DNA from: a virus
IMG/VR virus record: IMGVR_UViG_3300049729_000416
Location: 1-28,771 of that record
Reading direction: 5' to 3' (one strand)
Length of the DNA stretch: 28,771 nt
The translations under genes were made by a program, and so were the position numbers. This document shows positions 2,452 through 28,655 of the stretch, in pieces. Numbering within the stretch: the stretch's first letter is position 1; each line of letters starts with the position of its first letter. A model generated the notes under the pieces. It was not told where the DNA came from. It saw only the letters and a list, made by a program, of their open reading frames with translations, and ran no database searches.

Positions 2452-2637
2452 ATGACATCCAAGCGCCTACACGAACTAGAACAAGTTAGCCAGGGAATCC
2501 ACAACGCCCTCGCCGAAATCAAGTATCAACACGCTGACGTGGACCTCAGCGCAATTGAGAGCAAAGTAGTCACCCTCGATTCACTTCTCAGCGAGTGGGC
2601 TAAAAAGCTTGACACACCAGACGAGCCGGTGATGTAG
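2452..2637 (+). CDS. Small hypothetical protein, 61 aa
   Basis: The ATG at 2452 follows an AAGGAG ribosome binding site at the right spacing and is preferred over an in-frame ATG at 2428 that lacks one. The product is a short, acidic, largely helical protein (HELEQVSQGIHNALAEIKY...) resembling a small coiled-coil. No family was recognised. It lies 39 nt downstream of the secreted-protein gene on the same strand and may form an operon with it. Its last 38 nt overlap the end of the convergent lysozyme gene. Confidence 0.6.
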   Translation: MTSKRLHELEQVSQGIHNALAEIKYQHADVDLSAIESKVVTLDSLLSEWAKKLDTPDEPVM

Positions 2638-3064
2638 GCCCGGTCACCCACTCAGCCCTCTCGGCGAGTCTGCGGCGGAGGAGTCCTGCAACAACAAGCC
2701 CACCCGCTTTATCCCACTTCGCAAACTCGTCTACAGCGCGAGCCATGTCACCTACGTTGATGAGCTTGAGCAGGGTACTATGCTCAAAGTTCCCACACCC
2801 ACAATTGAACACGAAGTCAACCAGGGAGTCATTCTCCGGCTGCGTTAGCGGTACGTGCACATCAGAGTTAACCCTACCCTGAGCCCACTCGATGTCAGCC
2901 TGGAGCCACGCCTCAGCCTGGAGCAGGGTGCAGGTCATGCCGGGATACACACCGGCTGTATGGCCATAACCGATCGTCCAGACGCCCTTGCTGTCCTGAT
3001 AAGCCGATAGCTTACAGCCTTCGAACTGCTCGGTTAGATGCAACCCCGTAAGTGAGTAGACCAT
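2600..3064 (-). CDS. Endolysin, GH24 (T4-type) lysozyme
   Basis: A muramidase that cleaves the glycan strands of peptidoglycan at the end of the lytic cycle. The N-terminus carries the classic GH24 triad with exact spacing: Glu15 (QFEG), eight residues, Asp24 (YQDSKG), five residues, Thr30 (WTIGYGHT). At 154 aa it is typical of single-domain phage lysozymes. There is no signal peptide or signal-anchor helix, so it should need a holin to reach the wall; no convincing holin lies next to it. ATG 3064 has an AAGGAG site upstream. It is the last gene of the leftward late operon and overlaps the end of the convergent 61-aa gene. Confidence 0.95.
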   Translation of the reverse strand: MVYSLTGLHLTEQFEGCKLSAYQDSKGVWTIGYGHTAGVYPGMTCTLLQAEAWLQADIEWAQGRVNSDVHVPLTQPENDSLVDFVFNCGCGNFEHSTLLKLINVGDMARAVDEFAKWDKAGGLVVAGLLRRRLAERAEWVTGPTSPARLVCQAF

Positions 3065-3091: not shown

Positions 3092-3742
3092 TTAGCGGTC
3101 GTGCAGCGTGGCGGAGACATGGCCCCGACGCACACTTGACGAGTCGTAACCATAGATCAGCGCCACGCCGTGTACCCCCTCACCGCGATGCATTCCGAGG
3201 CCGCAATCGTGCAGAATGACCTCCCATTTTTCTTGCTCGTCAGACCGCCAGGCTCTGTGCTTTAAATGACGGCCCGGGCATATGCCTACTATTCCGGCTG
3301 CACTGAGTATGTGGCTCACCCGGCGTTGCGAGATCCCGAAGTGTTTGCCTATCGCCGCATAATGCAAGATGGGGTTTGCCTTCGCATAGGCCACGACTGC
3401 CTCGTAATCTGCTTTGGGCTTCGGTCCCTTACGCCTGCCTTTTATTCCAGCGGCACTAAGTATGCGACGCACGTAAAAGCGTGAGATTCCGAAGTGCACG
3501 CCTACATCCGCCTGACTCATGTCGGGGTTTGCAGCCCTATAGGCCACCACCTCCGCGTAGTCAGCTTTGTGCCTGCCTTTTATTCCAGCGGCACTTAATA
3601 TGTCATTAGTATGAGATTTTAAGATTCCGAAGTGCGCACCTATATCCGCCTGGCGCATGGTGGGGTTCGCGATCGCATAAGCCACCACTGCTGCAGGGTC
3701 TACTTTGAACTTACGTCTCTGCGGCATTGTGGAGGTTGTCAT
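3092..3742 (-). CDS. Triple helix-turn-helix protein with conserved C-terminal block
   Basis: A 216-aa basic protein made of three tandem HTH-like units (about residues 11-54, 59-100 and 110-151). Each follows the pattern AxVVAYxxANPxxxxADIGxHFGI then a recognition helix ending ILSAAGI, joined by Lys/Arg-rich linkers. The C-terminal part (about 165-216) contains WEVILHDCGLGMHRG and LIYGYD. Unit and C-terminal block both recur in the single-unit paralogue at 26432-26788. I know no function for this architecture. It resembles transposase-type or Psq-like HTH repeats, so sequence-specific DNA binding is inferred; no HNH or other nuclease motif is seen. ATG 3742 was chosen; ATG 3727 is possible and neither has a good ribosome binding site. 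A hairpin lies 2 nt upstream. Confidence 0.8.
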   Translation of the reverse strand: MTTSTMPQRRKFKVDPAAVVAYAIANPTMRQADIGAHFGILKSHTNDILSAAGIKGRHKADYAEVVAYRAANPDMSQADVGVHFGISRFYVRRILSAAGIKGRRKGPKPKADYEAVVAYAKANPILHYAAIGKHFGISQRRVSHILSAAGIVGICPGRHLKHRAWRSDEQEKWEVILHDCGLGMHRGEGVHGVALIYGYDSSSVRRGHVSATLHDR

Positions 3743-3744
3743 CT

Positions 3745-3787
3745 GTAGGTCGATTGAGAAGTCGATCCGCGTGGATCGGGGACCTAC
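3745..3787 (-). promoter_or_regulatory. Composite stem-loop between fibre gene and triple-HTH gene
   Basis: Nested inverted repeats: outer arms GTAGGTC (3745-3751) and GACCTAC (3781-3787), inner palindrome CGATCC-GCGT-GGATCG (3763-3778). The structure covers the TAG stop of the fibre gene and ends 2 nt before the ATG of the HTH gene. It could terminate or attenuate the fibre transcript, mask the start region of the HTH gene, or be a DNA operator for the HTH protein. No T-tract follows, so a simple intrinsic terminator is unlikely. Confidence 0.55.
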
Positions 3788-4782
3788 GTGTAATCGAGTT
3801 CGCCATTTGTAATGGATAGCGTCACCGGCAGCCCGGTGCCAGCATCCACGAGCACGATCAATGAAGATGCGACGACGGTCAGATTTGTTGCCGAGAAGGT
3901 ACCGCCCGACGTGAATGCAATGGATGGGGTATAAGACACCCCGCTGTAGGTCAGTAAATCTCCCATCGCGTACGAGGTGGTGGCAGCCCATGCTCCGCGA
4001 AGGTTGAATCCGCCCGGCACCCCCTTGGGTCCGGTAGGTCCAGTCGGTCCAGGTACCGTAGACACCGCGCCGGTCGGTCCGGTAGGTCCAGGTACAGTGG
4101 AAGCTGCACCTGTTGGTCCGGTAGGTCCAGGCACCGTGCTTGCAGCGCCAGTTGCACCTGTAGGTCCGGTAGGCCCAGGCACCGTTGAAGCTGCTCCCGT
4201 GGGTCCAGGCACTGTTGATGCCGCCCCGGTAGCCCCGGTAGCCCCGGTTGGTCCAGTAGCACCCGTAGCACCCACTGTTCCGGTTGCACCAGCCGTGCCC
4301 GCCGTACCTGTTGCGCCGGTGGGACCGGTGATTCCCTGAATTCCCTGCGGGCCAGTCGCGCCGGTCGACCCTGTCGGCCCAGTTGGTCCTGTTGCTCCGT
4401 CACCGCCCGCCCCGGAGCCTCCACCCACGCAGAGGACGCCCCAGTACGCCGGGTTGTCATCCGGCTCATAATTCAGGGTGCCGTTGCGGGTGCAGATATA
4501 TGTCGAATTCCCGTATGAAACGCAGTCGTAGGCGTTGTATCCGGTCAGGGTGTTGTAGGCCCCGCGCCAGTAAAACCCCTGGGGAACGGTGTTAGGCGCT
4601 CCCGCAATCGACCCGGCGGCGGCTAAGAGGTTCCACGTCGTGGTAGACGCTGGAGTCGTCGGAGGCATTACATCGATGTTCGCCGTCGCCGCAACGTAGG
4701 AAGAACCGAGGTAAGAGATCGCATCCCCTACGTTGTATGAGGTGGTGCTGACCCACGTGCCTGCCCAGTTGAGAGTGCTCAA
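3784..4782 (-). CDS. Collagen-like tail fibre with carbohydrate-binding-like modules (short)
   Basis: A structural fibre of 332 aa. Residues 1-110 hold two modules of the CBM5/12-like pattern ([19 protein letters not shown]...; [21 protein letters not shown]...). A Gly-X-Y collagen-like stalk of about 130 residues rich in GPTGATG and [10 protein letters not shown] follows. A third, divergent CBM-like module and a short beta-rich tail ending at TAG complete it. Collagen-like stalks in phage fibres form trimeric rods, and CBM5/12-type domains bind polysaccharide, so host-surface binding is inferred. The start is TTG at 4782, two nt after the preceding stop, with AAAGGA just upstream. It is closely related in sequence to the giant fibre at 7413-11954. 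Confidence 0.85.
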
Positions 4783-7412: not shown

Positions 7413-10400
7413 TCAGCCTAGGACATACTCGAACCATCCCGTGACGGTGAATGTACCCGAGTCAACATAAACGAGATAGAAGTCCGAAGGCTGCGACACG
7501 GCCAATGTTGCTTTGTAGGAAGCGCTTCCGTTTCCTTCCCAAATACCGGCGATATTAAATGGAGGGACAGCAGGATCAACGATGGCATTCATGGTGTATC
7601 CGCCGCCGGTTCCACAGACCAGCACCAGCGTGCTCTTACCTGAGTTGTTTGGAAACGAGGTCATGGGTTTCCGCTGCACAGGAGCAGTAGCGCTTAGGTT
7701 GGCTGACTTAGTAAGGGCCACGCCGCTGAGTTGGAACTCACGCCAGCTCCCGATGGATATTCCGGTTACACTGTAGTAGTCGCCAGCGGGGATAGGCACA
7801 AAGGCCGGAACGATTGAGGTCACAACCGGGCTTGCCTCAAATACAACCGTCGACGGACTGGACGAGCTATCGCTCACGACTATCATGGTGGGAGTGCCGG
7901 ACGTCGAGCGTACCGACAGGAACATGGCATTTCCCGAGGTGTTGTGGTACACCGTACCGACCACTCGACTTCCAGAAAGTTCACCCGAATCGGTTAAGGT
8001 TCCCGAGTTTATGGGGTACTCATTCCAGTAATTAATCGTTCCGCCGGAACAAGTGATCTGGAAGTAGTAGCCGATCGGGACAAAGAAGATCAATTCCGCC
8101 CCACCCGCATTTATTTGTGTCGTGGAAACCACGGCGCTCGGCGCGGAAGATGCATCGCACACCGCAACTCCGATCGTGTTAGTCGGATTGGTTACTCCAA
8201 CGCTAACCAGTAATGGAACCCCGCTAGTATTGTGGTAGATGGTGCCGATCGCCCGCGTTCCCGTACCGTATCGATTGCGCCCCAGGATGGGAGCTGCCGG
8301 GCTGCCGCTGGGACCGGTCGCACCTGTGGCCCCGGTCGGGCCGGTGGGGCCTGTTATTCCTGCGCCGGTGGGTCCCGTGGGGCCGGTTGGACCTCCTGAG
8401 GGGCCGGTTGGTCCGGGCACTGTACTGGCTGCGCCAGTTGGTCCAGTGGCTCCAGTGGCTCCTGCTTGGGCTACCAAGCTCCAGTTCATCGTATCGGTGG
8501 GCACGTCATTAAGATTGTTGGCCGTATGGTTGACGTATGTTGCCCCGTTGTAGCTCACCAGGTTATTAATCTGGTAAGTGTAGGTGCTGCTCCACGCGCC
8601 AAAAAAAAGTATAGAAGTTCCGTTCGTCCCGGTCGCCCCCGTAGCGCCGGTGGCACCTGTAGCTCCCGTGGCACCTGTTGCGCCGGTGGCACCAGCGGTA
8701 GATACCAGAGTCCAATACGTCGCATTCGTCGGCAGGATGTTGTTGACGTTGAACCCGATGCAGATGTAGGTCGCCCCCAAGTAACTCACTAGCTGGTTAA
8801 GCTGATAGTTGGTGTAGGACTCATAGGCACCTGTCCAGACCGCACCTGCGGGGCCGGTTGCACCTGTTGGGCCGGTTGATCCAGTTGGTCCCGTTGGTCC
8901 TGGTACGGTGCTTGCTGCTCCTGTAGCTCCCGTAGCTCCGGCACCCGTTGCGCCGGTGGGACCGGTTGCACCGGTGGCACCGGCTGTGCCGAGGGCTACC
9001 ACCTGCCAGTAGGTACCGTTGGTGGGATTTATGCTGCTGGTAGCGATTAGGCAGATGTAGGTTGACCCAGAGTACAGGACACTATCGCTCACGGCATAAC
9101 TTGTCGCGGTGTACCACTGGCCCCGCACATATCCGAGGCCGCTTGCACCAGCGGTGCCGGTAGGACCCGGGACCGTCGAGGCTGCACCTGTTGCTCCTGT
9201 TGCACCAGTCGGTCCAGTTGGACCAGGAACCGTTGATGCAGCACCCGTTGGACCTGTGGCTCCAGTTGATCCCGCCACGGCAAGCAAGGACCAGTAGGTA
9301 CTTCCAACGTAAGGTGCTTGATTCGTGTTCGCATTGAACGCGACCCATGTTGATCCACCGTAGTAAACCGCATAGTTCAACGGATACGCTGTGGTAGAAA
9401 CCCACGGACCATCCCAGGTTAGCCCCGCGCCTGCTACTCCGGTCGCCCCTGTTGGTCCAGGAACGGTTGAGGAAGCACCAGTCGCACCTGTAGGGCCGGT
9501 CGGTCCGGTTGGGCCAGTTACACCCGTAGGTCCAGGAACGGTTGAAGCAGAGCCAGTTGGTCCGGTGGCTCCCCCAACACCGGTGGCTCCAGTCGGGCCA
9601 GTCACACCTTGAATACCCTGAGCCCCCGTGGCTCCGGTGGGGCCGGTCGCCCCCGTGATTCCGATCGTGCCGGTCGCACCCGTTGGACCAGGGACTGTCG
9701 AGGCTGCGCCGGTGGCACCAGTTGGACCCGTTGGTCCGGTGAGGCCGATGGATCCCGTTGGTCCAGGTACCGTTGAAGCAGCCCCGGTGGCTCCCGTCGG
9801 TCCCGCCGGACCCGTTACTCCCGTTGGGCCGGGAACGGTTGATGCCGCCCCGGTTGAACCTGTAGGTCCTGCTGGTCCGGTGGCTCCGGTCACGGTCTCC
9901 GCAACGGGCTGCCAAGTAGCAGGATTGTCCCACGGTGGGACCCCGGTGTTAGCGCTCAAAGCGATATAGAGGCCGTAGGTGCCGTCGGTGACGATGTTGT
10001 TGACCGCGTAAGCGGTGGTGCCTGACCAGTTACCTATGTAGACGGGTATCCATGCGGTGCCCGTGGCACCCGTTGGCCCGGGAACGGTTGAGTTCGCACC
10101 TGTAGCTCCCGTGGCACCTGTTGGACCCGTGGGCCCTGTCAGTCCAGTCGGCCCCATCGACGCGATCTCCGTCCAGTAGCTGCTGGACACGGTGGGGGTC
10201 TGGTATGTGTTGCCGATGGTGCAAAGCCAGGAGGAGCCTCCGTAGTAGACCGCGTCGTTAGCCACGTAGGCGGTGGACACACTCCACGTGCCGGTCCAGA
10301 CTATGCCTGCGGCAGCCGCTCCGGTCGCTCCGGTTGCACCCGTCGCTCCTGTTGCACCGGTAGCTCCGGTCGGGCCGGTGGGACCTGTTCCACCTGCCCA

Positions 10401-11954
10401 ACCCTCCTGCGCGAGCAGCGCCCAGTATGGGCCGGTACCGCTGGGAGGCTGGTTTGAATTGGACTCGGTGCAAATCCAGGAGGAGCCTTCATAGCTGACT
10501 CCGTCATCCACCGAATAGGTGGGGCCGTTAGCATATGCGCCGCGCCATGTCATGCCCACGGGGCCGGTCGCACCTGTAGAACCAGTTGCACCCGTAGCAC
10601 CCGCAGGCGCAACCAGACTCCAATAAGCTCCGGTCTGCGGATACTGACTCGTGCTCGGTGCGGTTGCAATCCAGGTAGAGCCTCCGGCGGAGACGGTATC
10701 ATTCACTACATAACTCGTGCTGCTGTTCCAAACTCCGCGCCATGTCATGCCCACGGGGCCGGTGGCTCCGGTAGGTCCGGTCAATCCAATAGAACCTGTT
10801 GGCCCGGGAACTGTACTTGCGGCTCCCGTCGGTCCCGGGACGGTACTTGCAGCGCCAGTCGCCCCTGTTGCTCCAGTAGCCCCAGCCGTACCAGTGGCTC
10901 CGGTCAATCCGGTCGCTCCCGTAGCTCCTGTCGCACCGGTGGCACCCGCTGCACCTGCTGCGTACTCATAAACAATAATGACTCCGGGTGCACCAGCTCC
11001 ACCCGCATATGCGCCGCTGTTGCTGGCCTGAGCTGCACCTCCGCCGCCCGCGCCATATCCTGTGGCTGCGCCGCCGGAGGTATAAGTCGAGCCGCTTCCG
11101 CCCAAGCCGCCCTCACCAAGGGATGTAGATCCGCCATTGCCTCCGTGGCCTGCCGAGGCCGAAAGACGCACGCCGCATTCGCCCGGTGCGCCTGTACCAT
11201 TCACGGTGCCGTTTGATCCTGCGCCGCCCGCGCCGCCCGCTGGAAACGATACGGACGATCCAGCATACTGCCCCGCACCACCACCACCACCAGTAGCAGT
11301 GACCGTAGTGCCGCTATTCCAAATGAAGGTTGTCGAGGCCCCGCCCGCGCCGCCGCTGCCGTCGGTCGCGCCGCCCGCGCCGCCCGCGCTGCTGACAGTG
11401 TACGTTCCGACCTGACCAGACGTGATTCCGGGGAAAGAGTATAGAACGCGTGAGCCCGCTCCTCCGCCAGCAGCATAAGCACCGGTGGAGGATAGCGTGG
11501 TCACGCCGCCTCCTCCGCCGCCCGCACCGATCAGCTCCACCAAGATGGAGGTGGTGCCCGTCGTCGGTGTATACACCGCCCCTGAACCTGGGGTAAGGAC
11601 CCGAGTGTTTAGGAGCCCAATGCCGCCACCGCCACCGCCAGAACCAGTTGGACCAGTAGCGCCGGTTGCTCCCGTGGCTCCTGTTGGACCTGTGAGACCG
11701 ATCGGCCCAGTTGGTCCGGGGACGGTTGAAGCCGTACCAGTGGGGCCAGCGGGGCCGGTTGGACCTGTTGTGCCAGTTGCGCCTACCCCCGGACCCGTGG
11801 GACCTGTTGGACCAGGGGTTCCGACGTATCCGGGGTACCCCATTGGTCCCATAGGCCCGGCAGGCCCCGTTGGGCCAGTAGCACCCGTGAACGCGCCGTC
11901 GCCTGTTGGAACTGGAACTGCTGAGGGCACACCGGAAATATTAACTAGAACCAT
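7413..11954 (-). CDS. Giant collagen-like tail fibre with glycine-rich domain and CBM-like modules
   Basis: A 1513-aa fibre. In order: a short N-terminal attachment region; a collagen-like stalk (about 22-104); a glycine-rich domain (about 105-332, starting GGGGGG, with [12 protein letters not shown] and ending GVIIVYEYA); then Gly-X-Y stalks interrupted by eight modules of about 50 aa with the CBM5/12-like pattern (for example [20 protein letters not shown], then an aromatic YW or similar); and a C-terminal head (about 1218-1513) with three repeats, the first two marked by GTxYHNTSG and ending WNEYPI or WREFQL. Collagen-like rods trimerise, the CBM pattern suggests polysaccharide binding, and glycine-rich domains occur in phage adhesins, so receptor binding is likely. 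ATG 11954 follows AGAGAGA. The repetitive DNA is prone to copy-number change. Confidence 0.9.
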
Positions 11955-20743: not shown

Positions 20744-21160
20744 TTAGACGTACACCTTGGGGCCGGAAATCTTGATCTTGATGTCAAGACGCGCGGGCTT
20801 TTCGAGCGGGAAGCTCGGTGTCATCGACTCAACGATGCCCGAGAAGGCAACGCTGTTGGACGTGCCGTATAGACCTTTCATTGCTACCGGGGCACCGGCC
20901 AGGCGAATGCCTTCCAGTGCGACCTGAGTCGTGTCGCCGGGAAGGAAGAACGCCTTCACGTCGATCGTGCCGGGGTCCTGGGTGGAGCCGATGAAGGTGT
21001 CCACACCATTGACCGTTGCCATGGTGGTGGTCTTCTCGGTGGCGACCTTGTCGCCGGAGATTGCGAAGGAGTCAACACCCGCAAGGGTGGTGAAGGTGGT
21101 GGGCGAGAGGGCGGAGGCGAACTCGAAGCTGTCGCCTATGCCGGTGGTGGGAGTGGACAT
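20744..21160 (-). CDS. Major tail tube protein
   Basis: A 138-aa Thr-rich beta protein fitting the lambda gpV-like tail tube family in size, position and its C-terminal strand pattern (FSGIVESMTPSFPLEKPARL then DIKIKISGP). It should polymerise around the tape measure to form the tail tube. It sits upstream of the chaperone/tape measure block, as in other siphoviruses. ATG 21160 has AGGAGA upstream and overlaps the 3' end of the glycosyltransferase gene by 25 nt. A strong hairpin follows the stop. Confidence 0.85.
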   Translation of the reverse strand: MSTPTTGIGDSFEFASALSPTTFTTLAGVDSFAISGDKVATEKTTTMATVNGVDTFIGSTQDPGTIDVKAFFLPGDTTQVALEGIRLAGAPVAMKGLYGTSNSVAFSGIVESMTPSFPLEKPARLDIKIKISGPKVYV

Positions 21161-21903
21161 GGTGGGTCTCCTGCGGCCTTACTGTTTTTCTTCTTGGGTT
21201 GCGGTTTAACAGCGGCCTTAGGAGCGATCGCTGTGTAGAACTGGGTGGGTAACTCTTCCTTCGGAACTACTGGAAACTGTCTGTGGGTGCCGAGCTGCGT
21301 CGGGTGGCATACACTGCTGTCGTGTGCTCGGGCTACCAGCAGCTCGGCACCGTCTATGCTGTCCAGCTCGTGGGCAGCGAGCGCCTCGCCCTGGAATGCA
21401 TAATCTTCGATCCCGGTTTCGGGAAACTTGTGGTACTCCCACCAGGACCGCTTGTAGCACTGGCTCGATCCGCAGGCGTATGGTACGTGTGGCCGGTTAG
21501 GCTCAAACCAATATTTATAGGTGCCCCCGTTGGTGACGTCGTAGTAGTAGATGGAATGGAAGCCGGTCACCTGTTTGCCGGTTCCGATCAGACGTCCCAC
21601 CTGCTCACCTACTCGCTCGGGATGACTCCAGTCGTCCTCGTCGATCGTGATGCAGATGTCGCCGGTGGCGTAGCTGGTTCCCAGGTTGCGGAGCGCACCC
21701 ACTGGCATGCGGTCGCAGTGGTGATACTTCACGCGGGGGTCATCCGGGATCTGGCTTTCGATCGGCTCCTCGTTGTTGTCGAGGATGATGAGTTCCAGCT
21801 CACCTTCGTAAGTCGAGGCGAGGAAGGCATCAGCGGCTACTCGAAAGTAGGTGTCGCCATATCCAACTGGAAGAATTCCCGAGACCTTAGGTAAGTCACT
21901 CAC
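21136..21903 (-). CDS. Family 2-like (GT-A) glycosyltransferase
   Basis: A 255-aa protein with a GT-A fold pattern: N-terminal VSGILPVGYG strand, LIILDNNEEP at about 38-47, the metal/nucleotide-sugar DxD-type motif ITIDEDDW (Asp88-Asp91), and a later ED pair (166-167) near the acceptor site. The C-terminus is a Lys/Pro-rich tail. It would transfer a sugar to an unknown acceptor. It starts with GTG 21903 overlapping the TGA of the preceding gp10-like gene (GTGA), with GGAG 8 nt upstream, and overlaps the tail tube gene. It is thus locked into the tail-joining operon, and a virion protein acceptor such as the tail tube is a reasonable guess. No membrane segment is seen. Confidence 0.88.
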   Translation of the reverse strand: MSDLPKVSGILPVGYGDTYFRVAADAFLASTYEGELELIILDNNEEPIESQIPDDPRVKYHHCDRMPVGALRNLGTSYATGDICITIDEDDWSHPERVGEQVGRLIGTGKQVTGFHSIYYYDVTNGGTYKYWFEPNRPHVPYACGSSQCYKRSWWEYHKFPETGIEDYAFQGEALAAHELDSIDGAELLVARAHDSSVCHPTQLGTHRQFPVVPKEELPTQFYTAIAPKAAVKPQPKKKNSKAAGDPPCPLPPPA

Positions 21904-24008: not shown

Positions 24009-24731
24009 TTACTTCCGCTTGTTCAATTCGAGCTGGTGCGTGTAGATGCTAAGGTCGGGGGCCGCGTTGACTACCGGCTCTTCAACCACGGGCTTCACCA
24101 CGACGGGTTCTACCACCGGCTCGGTCACAGCCTCGGCCTTCAATGCGCTCGGCACGTTGCTGAATACGTCAAGTTTGAATTCGTTCTTCACGGCAGACGT
24201 TTTGCTCACGGATGTGGCGAAACCCTTGGCAACTGCCTCGTCAGCGGCCATCCATGTCTCGACGTGCTGCATGGCAAGGATGTCGGCCTTGGGGAGGCCG
24301 GTCTTGGCAACGTAAATGTCCGCGATTCCGCTGGTGACTATGGTCAAGGTGTCGGCCATCTTGCGCATGCTGTCTGCGTTGCCGCAGGCAATAGCCATGC
24401 CCTCGTGGATCATCATCACGCTGCCCGTAGCCATGGTGATGGTGTCCCCGGCCATGGCGATGATCGATGCTGCGGAGGCGGCCATTCCGTCAACGATCAC
24501 TGTCACCGACTTGTTGCTGGTCTTGAGCAGGTTGTAGATGGCGACGCCGTCGAACGCGGAGCCTCCCGGGCTATTGAGCCGGACGGTGATCGACTTACAG
24601 GGGTCCTTGAGCGCGTCGCTCACTGTCTGTGCGGTGATACCCTCCCCAAACATGTCCGCGCCGATGGCACCGTAGATGTTCAGTGTGAGCACGTCACCGG
24701 TCTTCGCGGCGTTAAAAAACTTGTTAGTCAT
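24009..24731 (-). CDS. Prohead protease, ClpP-like (S14)
   Basis: A 240-aa serine protease that should mature the prohead by cleaving capsid or scaffold segments. Visible features are NSPGGSAFDG (about 53-62, substrate-strand region), the nucleophile Ser86 in GMAASAASIIAMAGD, and His109 in VMMIHEG. The third position, around Glu158 in VETWMAADEAVAKGF, carries Glu where cellular ClpP has Asp. The C-terminal 60 residues are Val/Glu/Pro-rich. ATG 24731 follows AGAGGAGA and overlaps the portal stop by 8 nt (ATGACTAA); an upstream in-frame start was rejected. No capsid gene follows. Confidence 0.92.
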   Translation of the reverse strand: MTNKFFNAAKTGDVLTLNIYGAIGADMFGEGITAQTVSDALKDPCKSITVRLNSPGGSAFDGVAIYNLLKTSNKSVTVIVDGMAASAASIIAMAGDTITMATGSVMMIHEGMAIACGNADSMRKMADTLTIVTSGIADIYVAKTGLPKADILAMQHVETWMAADEAVAKGFATSVSKTSAVKNEFKLDVFSNVPSALKAEAVTEPVVEPVVVKPVVEEPVVNAAPDLSIYTHQLELNKRK

Positions 24732-26412
24732 CGCTGTCTCCTCTGCCCAATGCGACCAGCTCTGCACGGGCTTGTTCCTCTGTCATGTCCTTGCGCTTGG
24801 TGATGTACTCCTCAGCCTGTTCAGCCGAGATGTTGAGCACCTCGGCGACAAACTTTGCATCAATTTTGCCTTTGGCCTCTTTGCGCAGCACACGATCGGC
24901 CATGCTGCCAGCCAGCGCGTTCAAGCGTGCATTGGTCTTTTTCGCCGGTACGGGTATAACGACCTGCTTTACCGGCTGCTTCTTCGGCTTCGGCGGAACC
25001 GGGTGCTTGAAGGGGGGCTCGGTATTGCCATCGCTGTCACCGGCCTCATCGGGTTCATCCTCACTCGGGTCGGGAACGTCGGCCTCTTCATTGGCGTCAT
25101 CGGGGTCGTCAGGATCTGGTGGCTTCTGGCCCGGAATGAAAAATTCACCAGTGACCGGGTTGTAGATGGCTCCGTTCGCCGGGCCGCTGATGAAGTCTCC
25201 ACCTTCAATTGAGTCGCGGTCCTCAAGGAACCGAGCCTCGTTGGGTGTCATTTGCCAGCTATTAATGAGCACCTGATTAGTGAGCGCCCGTTCCTTCGGA
25301 GAGCCTCGCAGGATAATGTCAGCGGCGTGCTTGGCATAGAGTTTGCCCCACTTTTTCTTGGGGATCAGGTCGCGCGTGATGCTCTGCTCGATCGCCGTGG
25401 TGAAGGGCAGCAGTGAGGTGTTGAAGTATTCGTCGAGAAAAGCTGAGCTTGATGCATAGGTGCTGTTCTGCTCACCAAGTCCCATCTTCACCATCAGCGG
25501 CGCACCACCGAGAAGCCGGACCACCTCTTGCTCTGACCATTTCCGCGACTCTAAAAGCTGCGACTCCTGGGCGTTGAATGTCATCTTCACCCAGGTAGCG
25601 CCGCCGGGGAGTGCGCTGAACTTACCCGCATTCTGAGAGCCGCTGAAATCCTTCTTCAGGCGATCGACGATGTTCTGTGCTTCCTTCTCATCGGGTGCGT
25701 TGTCCGCATCGGGAAAGGAGATGAAGCCGCCCATGCCAAGGCCATTGGCAAAGTTGCGTCCGGCCACTTCCTCAGCCGCCATCAGCAGCGACAGGGCCTC
25801 TTTGGCTAGGAGAATAAGCGGGCTGCCTTCGAGGCCGAAGCCTTCGAAGTTGAGTGCCGACACGTGCCAGATTTGATCCTGGGTAAACTCCATCGTGCCG
25901 CCCTGACCACAGTTTGTGTAGCGGTACTTCAGGGTAGGTGGCGTGGTGGTTCGGTCCCAGTGTGGTGTCATGTGCCAGGCATTGAGCGGGATGAGACCGA
26001 TGGGATCACCTGCCTGGTCTGTCAGAATCTGGCAGTAGCAGTTGCTGTTCATAATGAGCTGGGACGCGAGGAACCAACGCATTTGATACGAGGTCTGGTA
26101 GCTGTTCGGGCAGTCCTTGAGTAGTGTGTAGAGTGGATTGTCGATCGCCGGTTGCGTGCGAACGCGGCCATCGACTCTCTTGGTCTCGCGCAGAATAAGC
26201 GGCATCTTGGCGAGGTCGTTGGAGAGCATCTTAACGCCGCCCAAAAATGCAGACACGCGAAGCGCGGTCTCGCGCGTGACTACCTTACCGGCGGCGGCGG
26301 GTAGCCCAACGAGGGCGTGTACCAACTCGGAGCTGGGAGACGCAAAGGTGCTCTCCCCACTGTTTCGAAAGGCGTTCAACCAGCCCGCTCTGAAGTTATT
26401 AATGAAGCCCAT
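24724..26412 (-). CDS. Portal protein, HK97 family
   Basis: A 562-aa protein forming the dodecameric DNA-entry ring at the unique capsid vertex. HK97-type features include TALRVSAFLGGVKMLSNDLA (about 49-68), PLYTLLKDCPNSYQTSYQM (about 93-111), NSNCYCQIL with IPLNAWHM, and later IWHVSALNFEGFGLEGSPL. After the core, about residues 428-490 form a very acidic Pro/Asp/Glu stretch and then a Lys/Pro segment, and a helical tail ends GRGDSDD. This C-terminal extension is longer than in the shortest family members. ATG 26412 has AAGAGAG upstream. Confidence 0.93.
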   Translation of the reverse strand: MGFINNFRAGWLNAFRNSGESTFASPSSELVHALVGLPAAAGKVVTRETALRVSAFLGGVKMLSNDLAKMPLILRETKRVDGRVRTQPAIDNPLYTLLKDCPNSYQTSYQMRWFLASQLIMNSNCYCQILTDQAGDPIGLIPLNAWHMTPHWDRTTTPPTLKYRYTNCGQGGTMEFTQDQIWHVSALNFEGFGLEGSPLILLAKEALSLLMAAEEVAGRNFANGLGMGGFISFPDADNAPDEKEAQNIVDRLKKDFSGSQNAGKFSALPGGATWVKMTFNAQESQLLESRKWSEQEVVRLLGGAPLMVKMGLGEQNSTYASSSAFLDEYFNTSLLPFTTAIEQSITRDLIPKKKWGKLYAKHAADIILRGSPKERALTNQVLINSWQMTPNEARFLEDRDSIEGGDFISGPANGAIYNPVTGEFFIPGQKPPDPDDPDDANEEADVPDPSEDEPDEAGDSDGNTEPPFKHPVPPKPKKQPVKQVVIPVPAKKTNARLNALAGSMADRVLRKEAKGKIDAKFVAEVLNISAEQAEEYITKRKDMTEEQARAELVALGRGDSDD

Positions 26413-26431: not shown

Positions 26432-26788
26432 TTAGTTAGTCGGTTGCAGGGTGGCGGAGTCGTCGTTATGACTCTGCTTGAGCGGGTCGTAGCCGTAGAG
26501 GATGCGCTGGTTATGCAGGCGTAGCCCGCGCTCCATGCCCAGCCCGGCGTTGTGCAGGATGACCTCCCACTGGGCTTGCTCGCTGGTCTGGCCCGGCTTT
26601 GCTTTCAGTGGCCTGCCCCTGCGGATTCCCTGGACGCCACACGCGGCGAGGATGTGACTCACCCGGCACTGCGAGATGTGAAAGTGCGTGGCCACCTCTG
26701 ATTGGTGCATGATGGGGTTTGCGGCCACATAGGCCACCACCTCGTCATAGTCGGCTTTACGCTTACGTCCCTTGGGCATCTTGCTCAT
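26432..26788 (-). CDS. Single helix-turn-helix protein with conserved C-terminal block
   Basis: A 118-aa basic protein. One HTH-like unit (about 11-53; DYDEVVAYVAANPIMHQSEV, HFHISQCRVSHILAACGV) is followed by a Gly/Arg linker and the block WEVILHNAGLGMERG and ILYGYD. Both parts match the triple-HTH protein at 3092-3742, and the two also share SATL near their C-termini. ATG 26788 overlaps the terminase TGA (ATGA) and has GGTGAG upstream; a TTG five codons earlier is less likely. Place and size would fit a small terminase subunit or a DNA-binding regulator; neither can be shown from the sequence. Confidence 0.8.
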   Translation of the reverse strand: MSKMPKGRKRKADYDEVVAYVAANPIMHQSEVATHFHISQCRVSHILAACGVQGIRRGRPLKAKPGQTSEQAQWEVILHNAGLGMERGLRLHNQRILYGYDPLKQSHNDDSATLQPTN

Positions 26789-28521
26789 GCGCTCACCATC
26801 CAAACGGTTTTCTTTTTAATTTGGTTTTCTGGATCTGTTGCTCGCGCGAGAGCCATGATTAGGGAGGCGCAGCCATCGATCTTTTCGCGCTTGCGGTCGC
26901 GGGCTGGCTTAATAAATCCGGTGCCGCGCTGTGTGTTCCAGCGCAGGTTCGACATTTGCCAACGCATCACGGGGTTGTGTGCGTGGGTGAACTCGGAGCG
27001 GAGTACCTTCCGCATGAGCTCCTGGCAGGGGGCGTTCATTTTTAAGTGGGACTGGGGGTAGTCCACGAGCTTGCGCATCGGGAACCCACCCTCGTCGAGC
27101 ATGCGAACAAGTTCCGATGACCAGGCTTGGTCGTATGCGATTTCTTTTAATTCGAAAAGTTTGCTGATCTCTGTGATCTGGTCCGCGATGTATCGGACGT
27201 CGGTGAGGTTGCCGGGGGTCGGAACAATGAACCCATCCTTGGCCCAGGTGCTATAGGGCACTTTGTCGCGCTTCACGCGCTCGGCGATGTTGTCTGCTGG
27301 GCACCAGAAATATTCGAGAATTGACCACTTTTCGTCGGTTTTAAGGGGTGGAAAGAGTAAAACGAGGGCAGAAGTGTCAATTTTTGGCGCTAAATCGATG
27401 CCACCAAAACAGGGACGGCCCTTGAGCAATTCAATGAGCTGCAGGCGCAGGCGCTTGGGATCTGGGTGAGTGGCGATGTCCTCGGAGCAGCAGGCGTCCC
27501 AGGTGGCAATGTCGATCGCGGGGTCACTGACCTCGTCGCTCCACAAGTTCATGCGGAACCGTTTGAACTCGCCGAGTGCGGTGGGTTTACCCTGGCTCTC
27601 TGCAAATTGGTTCTCTAATGCGGTGAGCGGAAGAATGTACTCCAGTGATGGGTTGGGCTTCGCCCAGTTCTTCTTGTCTCGGTAGTCGTCCTTGAGGTCG
27701 AGTGAGAAGATGAAGGCTGCAACCTCATCGTCGTCAACCATTCCGTCGAGGATTCGCTCGCAATATTCGTGCTCGCCCCAGCAAAGTGTGGATTTGTTGG
27801 CCGAGGCACCGGCGGTCGTGATGCACCACATCATGGGCTGGCGGCGGGTGTCTCCGCCGTAGCGCAGGATTGACCAGAGATTGTTTGTCAGCGACCAACG
27901 ATGGAGCTCGTCAAGGATGGCCGCCGATACAATTGCACCATCTGAGCTGTCGGCACCACGGGCCAGTGGTGAGAGCCGGGAATTCGTCTCGGGGTCGTAC
28001 AGCGACAACACGGGGGAGTTGCCATACTTGTGGATGCGTTCAGTCAGCTCAGGGTGCTTGTCGCGCATCGCGCAGGCTTCGTTAAACACCTCCCGGGCTT
28101 GCTTCATTGCCGTGGCGGCACAGTACACGCGGGCGGCGAGTTCACCATCGGCGATCAGGTGAAGGAGTGCCAGGCCCGCGCAGAGGCCCGTCTTCCCATT
28201 TTTTTTCGCCACCTCTAAAAAAACCCTGCGGTAGCGGCGGGAACCATCGAGCCGCTTCCAGCCATAGACGATGAATAGGATCGCCCGCTGCCACGGCATT
28301 AGCTGGATCGGCTCGGTCTGAGCGGAGGGAATGCAGTAGGTGCTGAGGAACTCGATGGCATATTGACCGGCGACTGGGTCGAAGCGGATGTCGGTGCGCT
28401 TCAGATCAGCTACGTGACGCCGGATCGCTTTCTTGATCCAGGGACCTACAATCACAGAGCCGTCGAGGACGCCATCGATGTACTCTTGCGCCGTGGCAGT
28501 TATTGGGAGCATGGTGTGCAC
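26785..28521 (-). CDS. terL: Terminase large subunit (HK97-type)
   Basis: A 578-aa packaging motor and nuclease. The ATPase part shows Walker A VAKKNGKTG with Lys110 and Walker B AAILDELH with Asp204-Glu205; a motif III-like CITTAG follows. The nuclease part has the three acidic residues Asp376 (GGIDLAPK), Asp464 (IAYDQAW) and Asp549 (KIDGCASLIMAL). It is complete and typical in length. The start is taken as GTG 28521, which has GAGG upstream; ATG 28512 (residue 4), preceded by GGGGTG, is equally possible. It is the first gene after a strong hairpin, so the late operon may start here; no clear -35/-10 pair could be fixed in 28522-28620. Confidence 0.96.
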   Translation of the reverse strand: MHTMLPITATAQEYIDGVLDGSVIVGPWIKKAIRRHVADLKRTDIRFDPVAGQYAIEFLSTYCIPSAQTEPIQLMPWQRAILFIVYGWKRLDGSRRYRRVFLEVAKKNGKTGLCAGLALLHLIADGELAARVYCAATAMKQAREVFNEACAMRDKHPELTERIHKYGNSPVLSLYDPETNSRLSPLARGADSSDGAIVSAAILDELHRWSLTNNLWSILRYGGDTRRQPMMWCITTAGASANKSTLCWGEHEYCERILDGMVDDDEVAAFIFSLDLKDDYRDKKNWAKPNPSLEYILPLTALENQFAESQGKPTALGEFKRFRMNLWSDEVSDPAIDIATWDACCSEDIATHPDPKRLRLQLIELLKGRPCFGGIDLAPKIDTSALVLLFPPLKTDEKWSILEYFWCPADNIAERVKRDKVPYSTWAKDGFIVPTPGNLTDVRYIADQITEISKLFELKEIAYDQAWSSELVRMLDEGGFPMRKLVDYPQSHLKMNAPCQELMRKVLRSEFTHAHNPVMRWQMSNLRWNTQRGTGFIKPARDRKREKIDGCASLIMALARATDPENQIKKKTVWMVSA

Positions 28522-28620: not shown

Positions 28621-28655
28621 CAAAGGACCCCACCTTGTTCGGGTGGGGTCCTTTG
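28621..28655 (-). terminator. Strong hairpin upstream of terL
   Basis: A perfect 14-bp stem (CAAAGGACCCCACC / GGTGGGGTCCTTTG) with a 7-nt loop. It lies 14 nt after the stop of the partial leftward gene and 100 nt before terL. With a short T-run inside the 3' arm and high stability, it likely ends most transcription of the upstream gene. Confidence 0.75.

Follow-up and report, generated by a model that had tools for sequence, protein, structure and literature searches.

The closest described counterparts of the protein reported here are phage proteins with tandem HTH units, such as the HTH arrays fused to HNH/LAGLIDADG endonucleases and the D5-like regulators (phrog_323, phrog_14131), which likewise consist of arrays of short tri-helical HTHs and are related to it by weak profile and fold matches. 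A similar tri-helical HTH is found in the DNA-binding domains of gamma-delta/Tn3 resolvase and the Mos1/Tc3 transposases, with Z scores of 5.5-7 over about 45 residues, and the P27-type small terminase (PF05119) is likewise a small phage protein encoded near terL. The gene studied here comes from an environmental phage (uncultured sample), and its product is a small protein, predicted to bind DNA, that consists of three copies of one module and a short, very highly conserved end piece.

Genome context

The window, meaning the whole stretch of DNA analyzed (28,771 bases), contains from left to right an integrase, two small plus-strand ORFs and a late operon that occupies a long part of the minus strand. 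Its genes are transcribed in the order terL, the one-HTH gene, portal, head and tail genes, collagen-like fiber ORFs, the triple-HTH gene and lysozyme (Table 1). Adjoining the integrase is a 364-aa plus-strand ORF (1318-2412) with no Pfam or PADLOC match. The collagen-like ORFs (3784-4782 and 7413-11954) carry Gly-X-Y repeats, the first with repeated CBM5/12 modules, and are probably tail fibers. A family 2 glycosyltransferase gene (21136-21903) lies within the tail cluster, overlaps the next gene and is kept in relatives.

Table 1. Coordinates of the triple-HTH gene, its protein regions, the one-HTH paralogue and their neighbors in the window.
Feature	Position	Strand	Description
Triple-HTH + GLGM-block protein gene	3092..3742	minus	216 aa
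HTH unit 1	3590..3697	minus	aa 16-51; AlphaFold helices and unit alignment; recognition-helix region LKSHTNDIL, diverged from family
HTH unit 2	3452..3559	minus	aa 62-97; AlphaFold helices and unit alignment; recognition-helix region SRFYVRRIL, diverged
HTH unit 3	3299..3406	minus	aa 113-148; AlphaFold helices and unit alignment; recognition-helix region SQRRVSHIL, near one-HTH family consensus
C-terminal GLGM block	3140..3241	minus	aa 168-201; helix EQEKWEVILHDC, then GLGMHRG, then LIYGYD
Phage lysozyme gene	2600..3064	minus	Pfam Phage_lysozyme E 2.3e-44; immediately downstream of triple-HTH gene
Collagen-like / CBM5-12 tail-fiber-type ORF	3784..4782	minus	Pfam Collagen, CBM_5_12; immediately upstream of triple-HTH gene
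One-HTH paralogue	26432..26788	minus	118 aa, same block; between terL and portal
Terminase large subunit (terL)	26785..28521	minus	Pfam TerL_ATPase, TerL_nuclease; upstream neighbor of paralogue
Portal protein	24724..26412	minus	Pfam Phage_portal E 3.9e-64; downstream neighbor of paralogue

The HTH units

The triple-HTH gene, at the coordinates given in an earlier note on this DNA, runs from an ATG at 3742 to a stop at 3092, and the plus-strand frame over the same positions is interrupted by several stops. No promoter-like site was found at the locus. AlphaFold modeled three similar tri-helical units with pLDDT mostly 86-93; pTM was low (0.39), and the relative placement of the units is not predicted. 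Three tandem HTH-like units had been claimed from the letters alone, a claim against which a predicted structure lacking HTH folds would have counted; the HTH folds are present in the model, and the suggested spacing of 48-51 residues was nearly right, as the unit starts are 46 and 51 residues apart. The tri-helical unit was also recognized by profiles. Sigma70_r4 (E 1.1e-8), HTH_28 (E 6.8e-8) and HTH_23 (E 4.1e-6) matched above the Pfam gathering score, and HTH_PafC matched three stretches of the protein, each just under its cut-off.

Compared in pairs, the units are alike at 25-29 of 48 amino acids and 60-68% of bases. The repeats are still visible as DNA, with repeat families that run in step with the HTH units. 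Three HTHs can fairly be taken to indicate a putative extended or repeated DNA target.

The one-HTH paralogue

The triple-HTH protein is 52% identical over 111 aa (E 4.4e-34) to the one-HTH protein encoded elsewhere in the window. HTH and block are common to both and are matched over the one-HTH protein's length, the tree is consistent with paralogy, and unit 3 is alike to the paralogue's HTH at 29 of 48 amino acids. The ATG of the paralogue overlaps the terL stop by 4 bp, as ATGA. Searches with tblastn placed the one-HTH gene between terL and portal in 20 viral contigs, and reading of the ORFs placed it likewise in two more divergent contigs, L062 and L084. Among one-HTH orthologues with measurable dS, dN/dS was 0.04-0.22; the gene is under purifying selection. 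In most members of the one-HTH family the HTH is preceded by a basic arm of resolvase type (GRKRK-type, net +2 to +6) and followed by a GRP-K-like linker.

The earlier note had called for a survey of unit number and genome position in homologues. The lineage-wide form proved to have one HTH and to lie between terL and portal, and the triple form occurs in one genotype only. Three HTHs are thus not the defining architecture of the family, since the triple architecture derives, in a single genotype, from the lineage-wide one-HTH protein.

Several further features were observed in passing. The order in L022 (4745-7164) and L062 (2374-5998) is unusual, with a terS-like gene, capsid and terL preceding the one-HTH gene and portal, so that capsid is upstream of terL. 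A tRNA-Trp gene (CCA anticodon) lies just upstream of terL in a relative (L043 5270-5345), and GIY-YIG-like ORFs, identified by reading, are inserted among the head genes of relatives (L062 9004-9486 and 10170-10844; L084 1219-1773). The stretch that separates terL from the capsid gene (the latter seen in L022) contains, at 28621-28655 of the window, an inverted repeat whose 14-bp arms match perfectly around a 7-nt loop. This repeat was considered as an operator for these HTH proteins and rejected. Because several relatives have hairpins at the corresponding point, several of them followed by T-runs, the repeat is probably a terminator after the capsid gene.

Distribution of the family

Proteins with one HTH and the block were found in many metagenome contigs. 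In a second lineage (L040 and L063) the HTH + block genes lie well upstream of terS, beside replication/HNH-type genes, and L040 has two of them in a row. One homologue with a single HTH (L012 2813-3181) reads GLVMESG for GLGMERG and YRYD for YGYD, which reflects a sequencing error or a decaying copy. Among 50,697 phage records there was no credible match to the one-HTH or the triple protein; the closest TerL matches listed from these records are less than 36% identical, and some of the records have an unannotated small ORF, or none, between terL and portal. Planctomycete genomes gave no match, in a search that had no positive control.

A pattern scan of genome contigs returned five matches, none of which had the architecture. 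A Bacillus plasmid match (H1, E 0.01) falls within an ORF of 714 aa whose neighbors are an ABC gene and a gene for a bacteriocin of the lactococcin 972 family, a Klebsiella KP12 match (E 0.3) lies in a long unrelated ORF, and both are attributed to chance, as are loci L072-L079, L081, L083, L085 and L086, which are without the architecture. A defense role was also set aside; the PADLOC match reached just E 0.012 and fell in the HTH region.

The C-terminal GLGM block

In the AlphaFold model the block begins with a fairly confident helix (residues 168-179), followed by a low-confidence Gly-rich turn and beta-hairpin, with pLDDT about 42-54 past the helix. The earlier note had suggested that it may be a new oligomerization or effector domain; as modeled, it looks more like a short docking element than a folded enzyme. 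Eighteen HTH + block proteins share W, E, L, GLGM, G and YG without exception, and W, L, GLGM, G and a later G are also kept in three block proteins without an HTH. The block is better conserved than the HTH. The C-terminal block with invariant residues that the earlier note described is therefore real; its "invariant-looking" residues were apparently derived from the second copy at 26788..26432, which exists.

The earlier note had proposed a profile search for the block, and a placement in a well-described family would have counted against its claim. No Pfam, NCBIfam or PHROG model covers residues 168-201, and matches of any weight are confined to the HTH region; PF03561 and phrog_18659 reach partly into the block, with E values no better than about 0.05. 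No solved relative was found by sequence, and literature searches returned nothing on the GLGM block. The block also occurs without an HTH, as a 58-aa ORF in L038 (no match in family-model searches), alone in L037, and as a 73-aa ORF in L018 whose start is 7 nt downstream of a separate ORF that weakly matches an HTH. Because it exists alone in these contigs, and in L018 beside a weak-HTH ORF, the block can act as a separate unit.

Origin of the triple form

A family-profile search found the triple gene in one of 20 virus records, many of them fragments, and that record is identical to the window. The triple form was seen only in this phage genotype, in the window and in one identical contig from another metagenome. 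At the matching place in L067 and L068, after the holin-like gene and then the fiber ORF, a different gene follows and the triple gene is absent. In the tree, unit 3 and the block group with this lineage's own one-HTH copies, with support of 91/86, below the strict threshold. Because of the paralogy, the absence in relatives and the tree grouping, the triple form apparently arose by duplication of the one-HTH gene, relocation and then tandem duplication of the HTH. A copy of the gene between terL and portal would have moved to the tail-fiber/lysis junction, where its HTH would have been tandemly duplicated twice. With a single genotype, orthologues give no measure of selection on the triple form, which could be a short-lived duplicate.

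Proposed function and alternatives

Our preferred reading, to which we give somewhat less than an even chance, is that the triple protein is a sequence-specific DNA-binding adaptor of the phage, descended from the one-HTH + GLGM protein of the packaging operon, with a block that docks a partner, most likely in late-gene transcription control. Each HTH, with a basic arm, would read one DNA segment. Unit 3 would keep the ancestral specificity and units 1 and 2 would read new sites, and the triple form would thereby bind a longer composite site more tightly. The block, as helix, Gly turn and hairpin, would dock a partner protein that most likely serves late-gene transcription control, with DNA packaging as the main alternative role. 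The position of the gene suggests late expression.

If packaging is the role, the one-HTH protein would assist terminase in recognizing phage DNA or terminating on it, its block would dock TerL, TerS or portal, and the triple protein would be a spare or modified version. This is possible but doubtful. The packaging-operon position of the paralogue, fixed between terL and portal and overlapping terL, fits packaging at least as well as transcription, and one family member weakly matches the PHROG terminase small subunit. Recognition of DNA could be a shared task, because the gene recognized as the small terminase has just a weak match to Terminase_4 that falls short of the cut-off (E 3e-4); neither the triple-HTH nor the one-HTH protein matches this model (PF05119), and the P27-like gene is a separate ORF upstream. 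On the other side, a small-terminase-like gene is already present upstream of capsid and terL (L022 6772-7164, L062 2374-2790), the HTH + block genes of the second lineage are remote from terS and have replication/HNH-type neighbors, and the triple copy is placed in the lysis region. For these reasons we tilt slightly to transcription control.

Another explanation holds that the protein is what remains of, or is related to, a mobile DNA-binding protein of the homing type, with HTH arrays as on phage endonucleases, that spread by duplication and has no phage role. The top viral match in Foldseek (E 3.4e-8), from BcepSauron, is annotated as an endonuclease and has HTH repeats resembling these, with LAGLIDADG and mismatch endonucleases next, GIY-YIG-like ORFs occur in the same modules of L062 and L084, and the triple gene is missing at the same place in two relatives. 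We nevertheless think it improbable, as there is no nuclease domain or motif, the one-HTH gene keeps one position in those contigs of the lineage that were seen and evolves under purifying selection, whereas homing genes are sporadic, and conservation is higher in the block than in the HTH. The triple gene might instead be a decaying, non-functional duplicate that is still open by chance. It is known from a single genotype, stands on a long branch (1.2), has changed recognition helices and carries RGEGVHG in the block where others have RGLRLHN; its ribosome-binding site is weak by eye, and its GC3 is 0.60 versus 0.81 in the paralogue. Against decay, the gene is intact over 216 codons although it differs greatly from the paralogue at synonymous sites (dS about 1.65, dN/dS 0.25), every invariant block residue is retained, and an identical copy is found in a contig from another metagenome. 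We regard decay as having only a slim chance of being correct.

Beyond the adaptor reading of the triple protein, the GLGMxRG...YGYD block, which occurs alone, beside an HTH-like gene and fused to one or three HTHs, may be a new phage protein-interaction module that recruits, for example, RNA polymerase or the packaging motor to HTH-read DNA sites, although we hold this broader proposal to be rather unlikely. If it is true, HTH + GLGM-block proteins would be a new class of terL-linked phage DNA-binding adaptors. In a broad group of uncultured phages the one-HTH protein is encoded at a fixed place between the packaging ATPase and portal genes, and its end piece is conserved more strongly than its HTH; together these features point to a connection between DNA recognition and late phage functions that has yet to be described. 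The triple form would be a natural experiment in widening DNA specificity through HTH duplication, and the practical value lies in a named, searchable block and a small, easily tested protein.

Comparison with known systems

Where HNH/LAGLIDADG proteins have a nuclease joined to their HTH array, the triple-HTH protein has the GLGM block, and beyond the HTH there is no clear sequence orthology. No match to a nuclease domain (HNH, GIY-YIG, LAGLIDADG) was found in the block, and the endonuclease PHROG matches fall in the HTH part. Among solved structures, those most similar in fold are the HTHs of Mos1/Tc3-type transposases, of gamma-delta/Tn3 resolvase and of transcription factors, FapR among them. 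These matches come from the whole-protein comparison, those listed cover mostly single HTH units, and Z values of at most 7 indicate a common arrangement. Unlike the resolvase and the transposases, the triple-HTH protein is without a catalytic domain and has three units and the extra block. Its best Pfam match, Sigma-70 region 4 (PF04545), reflects generic HTH resemblance; no other sigma regions were found in the protein, and among the SigBFG/ECF NCBIfam models the best score was 14.9 against a cut-off of 234. The architecture had been called unfamiliar, and this holds for the block, whereas tandem HTH arrays joined to another domain are already common in phage proteins. The new part is the GLGM block. 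This is not a new kind of system, and it is the block and its linkage to terL and portal that are worth following.
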